A stretch of 64,000 nt of DNA from an uncultured Pseudomonadales bacterium (GTDB lineage Bacteria; Pseudomonadota; Gammaproteobacteria; Pseudomonadales; Pseudohongiellaceae): NCBI GenBank assembly GCA_949372635.1, contig CASIAB010000005.1, positions 124,001-188,000 of the forward strand, read 5' to 3'. The notes beneath the pieces were generated by a model that saw nothing but the letters and a program-made list of their open reading frames with translations, was not told the DNA's origin and ran no database searches. A program made the translations under genes and the position numbers. Shown piece by piece: positions 25,562-28,859 of this stretch (within the stretch, counting starts at the first letter, position 1; each line of letters begins with the position of its first letter).

Positions 25562-26080
25562 TCAGACAATGTCGAGCTCCGGATATGCAAAATTTGGTGC
25601 GTCGTTCCTACTCGCCTCATTGACAATATTGGAGGCATTATAGAGTCGCGTAATACTCTCCAATCTAGCCGATAGATTCACAATATCGCCGATCACTGAA
25701 TAGTTCATTCGCTTGCTGGAATCCAGATTGCCTGCAACTACGATGTCTGTCGTAATTCCTACGCATACTGACAGGCCGGAACCCATTTTCTCCAATCCCA
25801 CTGTTATATTTAGAAGAGCGCTCTTTGCGTTGGCGGTGTTAGTTGTTCCCTTGATCGGTACTCCGAATAAGGCCATCACGGCATCGCAGTTGTACTTGGC
25901 CACTATTACCTGATGTAACTCAGCATATCACTGATAGTGCTGAGCACTATGTTTGGTGCCTATAACACCCCCTTTGGAAGCAGCTCTTCGCAGAGTGTGG
26001 TGAAGCCGCGAATGCCCGAAAATAGAATAGTAACTACTCGTTCACCGCCGCCGAGTTCGACGGGGTTATTGAGCAACTAG
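25562..26080 (-). pseudogene. Class III adenylate/guanylate cyclase catalytic-domain remnant
   Basis: NPVELGGGERVVTILFSGIRGFTTLCEELLPKGVL* followed by ...CDAVMALFGVPIKGTTNTANAKSALL...VCVGITTDIVVAGNLDSSKRMNYSVIGDIVNLSARLE, with internal stops and missing core residues. Confidence 0.88.
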
Positions 26081-26089
26081 TCAAGCAGT

Positions 26090-26677
26090 TCACACAAGGT
26101 GCTTTTCTAATGCCTTTCTGACTTCAGCGGAAGAGAACCCTCGGGATATCAAGAACCCGGATAATTTTCTGTGCTTTTTAGAACCGAAGCTCAGTTTTTC
26201 TTGGCTTCGAAGCCTCTTGGTGGTCAACTGGCCAGCTGAAATTTGCCAGTGTTCGTCAGCTTTACTGAGATATCTAGCTATAACCATCTCACTCACTCGC
26301 CTTCCAGCCAGATCAGCACGTATGTGCAAGTAGGCAAACCCTCTAGACTTGCGGTACCTCACGTAAGATTCAGTGAAGCGATCATCTGACTGTAAATCCT
26401 CAGTCTTCAGAACATCAAGCACTTCGAGTAGCAAAGAGCTATCCGATTCCGGAAATTTTTTATTCAGTTTTTGGGTAAGTTCATAAAAAGAATGTTCCCG
26501 ACGGGCCAGATAGTCCATTGCGGCCCGCCGAAGAACAGGGGCATCGTTACAAGATGCTGTCTCGGATACTTTACTAGTCTTCCTACTTCTAGTCTTTTCT
26601 GATCTTTCCACTTTATCCGAATTATAAATCGACTCTTCATTATCAGCAGGAGAAGGGCCTATTGATAACGAAGGCAT
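26090..26677 (-). CDS. recX: Regulatory protein RecX
   Basis: AAMDYLARREHSFYELTQKLNKKFP...DRFTESYVRYRKSRGFAYLHIRADLAGRRVSEMVI; directly after recA. Start uncertain. Confidence 0.87.
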   Translation of the reverse strand: MPSLSIGPSPADNEESIYNSDKVERSEKTRSRKTSKVSETASCNDAPVLRRAAMDYLARREHSFYELTQKLNKKFPESDSSLLLEVLDVLKTEDLQSDDRFTESYVRYRKSRGFAYLHIRADLAGRRVSEMVIARYLSKADEHWQISAGQLTTKRLRSQEKLSFGSKKHRKLSGFLISRGFSSAEVRKALEKHLV

Positions 26678-26691
26678 CTGAGTCTGCAGCT

Positions 26692-27774
26692 CTAGCTGCC
26701 CTTCTTCGCGTCAGCTAAAACTATAACGTCATCATCATTGGCTGGCGTCTCTTCGGAGTTAGCTGCCTCTTCGGTATCGCTACCTAATAACTGAGTACGA
26801 ATCTGCAATTCGATTTCTTCAGCGGTATGCGGGTTCTCTTTCAGAAATACAGCGGCATTCTTCTTGCCTTGGCCGATTTTCTCGCCTTTGTAAGCATACC
26901 AAGCGCCAGATTTCTCTACCAAACCCTGCTTTACGCCTAGGTCGACAATCTCACCTAGGTGAAAGATTCCCTTCCCATACATGATCTGAAATTCCGCCTG
27001 CCTAAAAGGTGGTGCTACCTTATTCTTAACAACCTTCACCCGAGTCTCGTTTCCGACGACCTCGTCACCCTCTTTGATCGAACCGATGCGACGAATATCC
27101 AATCGCACAGAGGAATAGAATTTAAGTGCGTTGCCACCGGTAGTGGTTTCAGGGGAGCCAAACATAACACCAATCTTCATCCGAATTTGGTTAATAAAGA
27201 TAACCAGGGTATTCGAGTTCTTGATATTGCCTGTCATCTTTCTGAGAGCCTGAGACATCAGCCGAGCCTGCAGCCCCATGTGGGTGTCGCCCATGTCGCC
27301 TTCGATTTCTGCCTTAGGAGTCAAGGCGGCTACTGAGTCGATTACTACAACATCCAATGCCCCGGAGCGCACAACCATGTCGCAGATTTCTAATGCTTGC
27401 TCACCGGTATCCGGTTGGCTCACGAGCAGATTATCGACATCGACACCCAGATTACCGGCATAGATAGGATCGAGCGCGTGTTCCGCGTCAATGAATGCGC
27501 AGCTACCGCCTGCTTTTTGTGCTTCGGCGATAACCTGTAAGGTTAATGTCGTTTTACCAGAGGACTCTGGCCCGTATATCTCAACAACCCTGCCTCGCGG
27601 AAGACCGCCTATGCCTAGCGCGATATCTAGCCCTAATGAACCAGTAGAAATAGCCGGTATCGGTTCGCGATCGGTATCTCCGAGTCGCATCATAGAACCC
27701 TTACCAAATTGTCTCTCGATTTGCGTCAGTGCCGCCGCTAGTGCCTTTTCCTTGCTGCCGTTATCTTCAATCAT
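26692..27774 (-). CDS. recA: Recombinase RecA
   Basis: [30 protein letters not shown] etc.; start chosen at [16 protein letters not shown]. Confidence 0.98.
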
Positions 27775-27907
27775 CTTAATTTCCTTGTGTTTAAATTCAC
27801 AACTGAAGCCTGGTTCCATGAGTAAAGCAGTTGTCGGGTTTCCCCTTACACTCAGTTTCCTGAGCCCCTATAAATAGTAGCCTGTCCCCAGCTACTTACT
27901 AAATTTT

Positions 27908-28198
27908 CTAGATACTTTCTCCAGCAATTCTCCTAGCCGACTGGTCAATGCATAGCTGCACCAACTTTTCCGCTAGGCGTTCGCTGTTTATCTGGTGGCT
28001 CAAACTAGATGTCACTTCCATAACCATCGATGGACCCGCAGCGGGTAACATCGAGTTCAGCCATAAATCGTATAGTCCTGTCGCTGTGGTAGCGATCGAC
28101 CCTAACCTAGCAGATGTATTATTTGTTAAACCGTTTGTTAAACCATCTTCTAAATTTCTTGCCGGATTGCTAACTGTGTTTCTAATTGAACTATGCAT
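27908..28198 (-). CDS. Unrecognised 96-aa ORF between pncC and recA, preceded by tandem LexA boxes
   Basis: MHSSIRNTVSNPARNLEDGLTNGLTNNTSARLGSIATTATGLYDLWLNSMLPAAGPSMVMEVTSSLSHQINSERLAEKLVQLCIDQSARRIAGESI. Confidence 0.65.
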   Translation of the reverse strand: MHSSIRNTVSNPARNLEDGLTNGLTNNTSARLGSIATTATGLYDLWLNSMLPAAGPSMVMEVTSSLSHQINSERLAEKLVQLCIDQSARRIAGESI

Positions 28199-28267
28199 CG
28201 TCTTAACCTAATTCTATTAATTTTAGCTATTGCCTGGTTTCTCGAGGCTTCAGCCGTTTCATATATG

Positions 28268-28283
28268 CTGTATATACGTACAG
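28268..28283. promoter_or_regulatory. LexA (SOS) box 1
   Basis: CTGTATATACGTACAG, CTG-N10-CAG consensus. Confidence 0.88.
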
Positions 28284-28305
28284 CACAATTTTAACCAAAT
28301 TTATA

Positions 28306-28321
28306 CTGTATATACAACCAG
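28306..28321. promoter_or_regulatory. LexA (SOS) box 2
   Basis: CTGTATATACAACCAG, CTG-N10-CAG, 38 bp from box 1. Confidence 0.8.
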
Positions 28322-28358
28322 TATATTGGCAAAAATCCCAATTCCTTTAGTTTTCTTA

Positions 28359-28859
28359 TCAATTGATTAGCAGAAGGCAGCCTTCGAGCGCGGCAAGGAC
28401 CGTTGCGCGCCTGACAGACTCTCTGCCTCCGCTGAAATGAAAGCAACGAGCTAAACTCTTATCTTCCCACTGCCAGGCAATCCAAACCGTACCCACGGGT
28501 TTTTCCTCGGTGCCACCATCCGGCCCGGCTACGCCGCTGACGGCAACAGCTAGATTTGCCCTGCTGCCCTGAATAGCTCCTGCTGTCATAGCTAGCACTG
28601 TTGCCTCGCTCACGGCACCAGGGCCGTCTATGCTGAACAAAGCTGGAGGAACGCTTAACAAGCGCTGCTTTGCCTTATCGGAATAGGTGACGAAGCCGCT
28701 ATCGAACCAGGCAGAACTGCCGCTGAGCGCGGTAAGCGATTGGGATATCCATCCGCCGGTGCAAGATTCAGCGGTCGAGATAATAATTTTTTTTGCGAGG
28801 AGTTTGTCCGCAAGCTGTAGGACAAGTTTGGAAATCGCGTTAGAAAGGGAATCAGACAT
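28359..28859 (-). CDS. pncC: Nicotinamide-nucleotide amidase (CinA C-terminal family)
   Basis: IISTAESCTGGWISQSLTALSGSSAWFDSGFVTYSDKAKQRLL; GVAGPDGGTEEKPVGTVWIAW. Confidence 0.94.
   Translation of the reverse strand: MSDSLSNAISKLVLQLADKLLAKKIIISTAESCTGGWISQSLTALSGSSAWFDSGFVTYSDKAKQRLLSVPPALFSIDGPGAVSEATVLAMTAGAIQGSRANLAVAVSGVAGPDGGTEEKPVGTVWIAWQWEDKSLARCFHFSGGRESVRRATVLAALEGCLLLIN

Follow-up and report, generated by a model that had tools for sequence, protein, structure and literature searches.

Few bacterial regulators have been studied as thoroughly as RecA, whose control is commonly ascribed to LexA alone. In the window analysed here (the whole 64,000-nucleotide stretch of DNA from an uncultured Pseudomonadales bacterium), the gap between pncC and recA measures 584 bp and holds two LexA-type boxes together with a 96-aa open reading frame, ORF96. 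This raises the question of whether ORF96 is a gene, and what kind of sequence surrounds it ahead of recA. The parts of the locus discussed below are as follows.

28359-28859, minus strand: pncC (CinA domain; CinA Pfam E 2e-51), the upstream flank
28305-28332, minus strand: sigma70-like promoter TTGCCA-N16-TACAGT (9/12 match), overlapping LexA box 1
28306-28321, minus strand: LexA box 1, CTGGTTGTATATACAG, the ancestral recA box (CTGG-N8-ACAG, one mismatch), over the promoter-like hexamers
28268-28283, minus strand: LexA box 2, CTGTACGTATATACAG, a perfect CTGT-N8-ACAG with palindromic half-sites
28206-28209, minus strand: AGGU, weak Shine-Dalgarno (SD) sequence of ORF96, with the ATG 7 nt further; position common to most ORF-bearing relatives
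27908-28198, minus strand: ORF96, clade-specific protein-coding gene, 96 aa, ATG start
27997-28062, minus strand: Stem A, a long hairpin in the ORF96 core (arms 28062-28045 and 28015-27997; covariation, 32 species)
27876-27896, minus strand: Stem B, AGUAGCU/AGUAGCC-GGGGACA-GGCUACU, loop NNGGANN in all cases
27851-27864, minus strand: Stem C, CUCAG-GAAA-CUGAG, of lower conservation
27799-27834, minus strand: element D, ACAACUG..CUUUACUCAUGGAACCAGGCUU..CAGUUGU, hardly varying, with a CANGGA loop in which N is free
27782-27786, minus strand: recA SD sequence AAGGA, also an A(N)GGA motif
26692-27774, minus strand: recA (E 7e-146)
26090-26677, minus strand: recX, downstream of recA

LexA boxes and the proposed SOS transcript

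The pncC-recA gaps of 70 congeneric genomes and of 19 genomes from other genera of the family were compared. Ten further genomes of the genus gave no pncC match, and since full-length recA was absent from their matches too (one held a partial recA at a contig end), they are uninformative on loss of the ORF. Counted within the window alone, neither box is significant: CTGT-N8-ACAG occurs once against 0.65 expected, and one-mismatch matches number 20 against 20.2 expected. Comparative evidence nevertheless shows both to be real. A box pair spaced 37-38 bp apart recurs in about 56 of the 70 congeneric gaps; the other genera mostly carry a single box (19 gaps). Box 1 is almost invariant within the genus and reads CTGGTTGAATATACAG in most other genera, and box 2, 38 bp downstream, is mostly confined to the genus. 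Their coordinates and their distances of 70 and 108 bp to the ORF, as originally noted, are correct. One subclade (L091, L095, L096, L098, L099, L101, L103 and L107-L109) has a single box and a short leader, with about 125-205 nt separating box and recA, in which neither Stem A nor Stem B can be recognised.

The only sigma70-like hexamer pair found on the minus strand (28332-28305) lies on the distal box; about 1.2 matches of 9/12 are expected, which makes it weak taken alone. No terminator-like site was found between the LexA boxes and recA. One SOS transcript carrying ORF96 and recA is thus the natural reading. pncC, ORF96, recA and recX all lie on the minus strand, in agreement with the order and orientation first described, and the box lies at the promoter and is conserved across relatives, as in a LexA-regulated unit. 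The proposal that ORF96 would be the first gene of a LexA-controlled transcript is supported by these conserved boxes, as far as can be read from sequence. In its box over the promoter and its gene order the locus resembles the gammaproteobacterial LexA-controlled pncC-recA-recX arrangement, but it differs from the usual LexA-controlled recA promoter in the second box 38 bp downstream, a leader of ~520 nt and an extra gene at the head.

We posit that the gap comprises a LexA-controlled promoter and a structured 5' leader of the recA mRNA, ~520 nt long. Upon DNA damage LexA would be cleaved and a single ORF96-recA(-recX) transcript would be made. The weak SD of ORF96 would direct synthesis of a small SOS protein, largely disordered but ending in a helix and working in trans, and ribosomes on ORF96 would have to open Stem A. 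Loops B and D, together with the recA SD, would tune recA translation, most simply as sites for a CsrA/RsmA-type protein that recognises A(N)GGA.

Coding evidence and distribution of ORF96

Homologues of ORF96 occur in 12 species, every one of them between pncC and recA, and thus in only 12 of the 70 congeners whose locus is assembled; where relatives have named records, all of these are MAGs. The carriers are monophyletic in a PncC+RecA tree (SH-aLRT 94), and every member of this clade with an assembled locus carries the ORF. The distance from ATG to core varies (126, 126, 162, 114, 117, 60, 60, 78, 78, 162, 78 and 75 nt), always by multiples of three. Across the homologues frame 0 has no stops versus 3-14 in the other frames, and the ratio pN/pS, a check of the dN/dS type that had been suggested at the outset, is 0.43 in the ORF96 frame versus 1.14 and 1.23 in the two others. 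When Stem A is left out, synonymous changes make up a share of 0.441, with a maximum of 0.362 under permutation of alignment columns (0 of 1000 permutations), and with the Stem A codons included the observed share was likewise never reached by column permutation. The core is the slowest part (pS 0.19).

These comparisons argue that ORF96 is a real coding gene, restricted to one clade of 12 species. Absence of the frame from relatives had been named as the observation that would speak against a gene, and the frame is kept in all 12. Of the alternative offered by the first-pass annotation, a non-conserved leader ORF, the position in the leader stands and the lack of conservation does not. In one of the 12 (L072) the frame is shifted after the core, so the C-terminus is probably dispensable or changing in that species. 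A search of viral contigs returned no match, thus giving no sign of a phage origin, and no second copy of the leader was found in the window's own genome.

The N-terminus of the predicted protein is variable and rich in Ser and Thr; it is followed by an invariant core (GLYDLWLNSMLP-x2-(G/S)-x-SMV-x2-VTSS-x-SHQI) and a C-terminal helix (SERLAEKL). Its AlphaFold model (mean pLDDT 56) shows two helices, the remainder being of low confidence. The description as an ORF of unrecognised family holds: no family match was obtained in Pfam (E<=1), NCBIfam, PHROGs, PADLOC or PDB sequences, and PF03846 (SulA) was not matched in Pfam at the same threshold. Reading the sequence by eye revealed no long hydrophobic run, consistent with the reported lack of an obvious transmembrane segment, the hallmark of membrane-bound SOS inhibitors (YneA, SidA, TisB-like). 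Elsewhere in the window's own genome, a PF03846 match lies within a 247-aa frame (G000 contig C7:384844-385059), and likewise in frames of most congeners (usually about 215-315 aa). Judged by its length this 247-aa frame looks ImuA-like rather than SulA, which suggests a genus without classical SulA.

A structured recA leader overlapping the gene

ORF96 lies within a recA 5' leader of ~520 nt that is structured and genus-specific. The leader folds more stably than its shuffled versions (z = -3.9 against 100 shuffles), and in the 58 congeners without ORF96 the stretch from box to recA usually still spans 100-600 nt. Stem A reads UGGCUGAACUCGAUGUUAC...GUGACAUCGAGUUCGAGCCA in the window, coincident with the ORF96 core, and is built from different letters elsewhere in the genus, for example GCUGGGUUGGAUAUUG...CAAUAUCCAACUCAGC. 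Over 24 distinct versions 93.9% of cells are paired and 11 of 17 pairs have changed on both sides, which is far above all slid registers and was equalled in 0 of 500 shuffles; picking the 3' arms for their complementarity with a 5' arm held as anchor somewhat favours pairing, but not to the observed degree. In Stem B, 4 of 7 pairs show double changes.

Element D (ACAACUG-cau-UACUCANGGAACCAG-cau-CAGUUGU) lies about 45 nt before recA. By pattern it is present in 66 of 70 genus leaders, and a covariance model recovers it from 58 of 62 genus sources versus 0 of 19 from other genera; a search across the order found it in 1 of 142 genera. For the 14-nt pattern of its loop, a genome contains about one match. 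Its two arms hardly vary, so that their pairing is presumed; covariation was looked for in this stem and not found. An Rfam search of the leader returned only microRNA/snoRNA-type matches far below gathering scores. Comparison establishes Stem A, Stem B and element D as three RNA elements conserved in the genus.

Two further observations concern element D. In the species of the window loop D has T at its free position, creating an in-frame ATG (27819-27817) 45 nt upstream of the recA start, and the ORF caller extends recA through it to 27819. This is unlikely to be the true recA start, because many relatives carry another base there. In most congeners outside the ORF clade (leaders L073-L130), ACAACU stands directly before the recA AUG and can pair with AGUUGU, the 3' arm of D, enclosing the SD. 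Such pairing may represent an on/off switch lost in the window's clade, where it is absent; no covariation supporting it was found among congeners.

The relation between hairpin and gene is informative on their relative age. In the sister species L073, L082 and L074 Stem A is kept almost letter for letter, and the ORF frame contains stops or shifts, which argues that Stem A is older and more widespread than ORF96. Since sister and outgroup species retain Stem A with a disrupted frame, overprinting on a pre-existing hairpin is the most likely origin of ORF96. The locus thus offers a coding ingroup and homologous non-coding DNA in both sister and outgroup, the configuration required of a de novo gene; that an older ORF was lost in all sisters, rather than gained in the ORF clade, keeps a slim chance. 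Among the ORF carriers, L003, L006, L008, L009 and L071 have lost one Stem A pair through a synonymous change of ACA to ACT, and several pairs are broken in L007. Here the protein sequence appears to be held while the hairpin loosens, the opposite of what an RNA-only origin of the frame predicts.

We therefore consider it probable that ORF96 is a clade-specific small-protein gene of the SOS response, overprinted on a conserved riboregulatory recA leader. Whether the gene was born on a functional, covarying hairpin, inherited LexA control at birth and is now replacing RNA constraint by coding constraint appears to us evenly balanced. If true, the locus would capture a new SOS effector while it is emerging, at a still two-layered stage whose place on the tree can be given. 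Overprinted orphan genes of bacteria (PMC4683798, PMC5810103) are likewise young protein genes on already functional sequence, but in those cases the older layer is a protein gene, whereas here it would be a covarying RNA hairpin. This would be a rare case of RNA structure as the older function beneath a young gene, with outgroups available for dating.

Possible functions of leader and product

How the leader might act is suggested by its loops. One reading is that recA translation is repressed by a CsrA dimer spanning the roughly 33 nt between loop D and the recA SD, with extra sites in the loop of Stem B or C. In loop D (CANGGA) the GGA is kept and the preceding base drifts (C 26, T 24, A 9, G 7), and in loop B the base before GGA is G in 35, A in 9, C in 1 and T in 1. 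Published criteria for CsrA/RsmA targets ask for A(N)GGA at the SD, at least three sites and at least two pairs of sites less than 60 nt apart (PMC4066749). All three features are found in 45 of 68 genus leaders versus 0 of 19 from other genera, and also in the leader of the window, with sites at -86, -43 and -10; the last 130 nt of the leader hold 2.94 A(N)GGA sites versus 1.54 after shuffling. The regulator itself is encoded in 122 of 137 family genomes. The genome of the window gave no csrA match, which looks like an assembly gap because contig C3 begins within or right at lysC, the gene ahead of csrA in a relative. Against this reading, GGA is common and overlaps SDs, and the SD is nearly always A(N)GGA-like (in 18 of 19 other genera too), making that criterion nearly free and no proof alone. 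The GGGGA of loop B would be a weak or non-standard CsrA site, and loop D conserves more letters (UACUCA..AACCAG) than CsrA requires. We thus regard CsrA/RsmA control of the recA 5' UTR as a tentative proposal, plausible though somewhat short of an even chance. It would add translational to LexA control of recA. The structured leader itself, with its CsrA-like loops, is undescribed and extends across a whole genus.

A role of ORF96 in cis is rather doubtful in our view, yet it deserves consideration: as a leader peptide, its translation through Stem A would control recA and the product itself would be minor. ORF96 overlaps Stem A exactly and ends 134 nt before recA, and in E. coli iraD CsrA control acts via a short upstream ORF (PMC5574718). 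Amino-acid selection, however, extends over most of the length, also outside Stem A; the frame neither overlaps nor couples to the recA start, and most congeners do without it. Still more sceptical is our view of the opposite extreme, that the frame is open only through RNA-structure constraint on the DNA and no protein is made. The core, which evolves most slowly, does coincide with Stem A, but the coding signal is strongest outside the hairpin, the length changes respect the reading frame and the synonymous change described above costs five species a pair of Stem A, which together make this account very improbable.

The first-pass annotation favoured a checkpoint effector or RecA modulator, for which we found no homology, genomic association or confident fold pointing to either role; a function as division inhibitor is neither supported nor excluded. 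Like SulA (PF03846), YneA and SidA-type inhibitors ORF96 is small and putatively LexA-controlled, but it shares no sequence similarity with them, as had been noticed before, and lacks a transmembrane segment or functional link. A lineage-specific SOS effector of this kind, with an incidental leader RNA, is consistent with the first position of ORF96 in the presumed transcript, with selection on its protein sequence and with the apparent lack of a stand-alone SulA in its own genome, where PF03846 matches only within the ImuA-like frame. ORF96 nevertheless resembles no family and is confined to 12 of 70 congeners, nothing obviously takes its place at the locus in related species that lack it, and a covarying leader is not incidental. 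We consider this explanation unlikely, if less so than an absence of any protein.

In 2017, Ching et al. reportedly described a long structured recA 5' UTR in Acinetobacter baumannii that is LexA-independent and contains no ORF. Both leaders are unusually long and folded, and both are from Pseudomonadales; homology does not seem to be indicated, because the element found here matches 1 of 142 genera of the order. CsrA/RsmA-repressed leaders (PMC4066749) share with ours the A(N)GGA motifs in loops and SD and sites less than 60 nt apart, and iraD (PMC5574718) shares the short ORF in the leader. Here, in contrast, the target is recA under LexA, the ORF encodes 96 aa, stops short of the recA ribosome-binding site and is clade-specific, and the CsrA sites are predicted.

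In other clades, an f2-frame peptide opening at Stem A (MAELDV../MNVAGLDI..) was rejected as coding, its lengths, starts and stops being inconsistent. Short frames of the form MNVA(G/R)LDIA.CALQPA begin at Stem A in L085, L086, L089, L093, L094 and L100, in a different frame and not consistently open, and a second leader peptide is possible in this group. Just past recX, a 113-aa minus-strand ORF (25562-25903) partially matches class III adenylate/guanylate cyclases (PF00211 positions 84-140) and looks like a truncated cyclase remnant.
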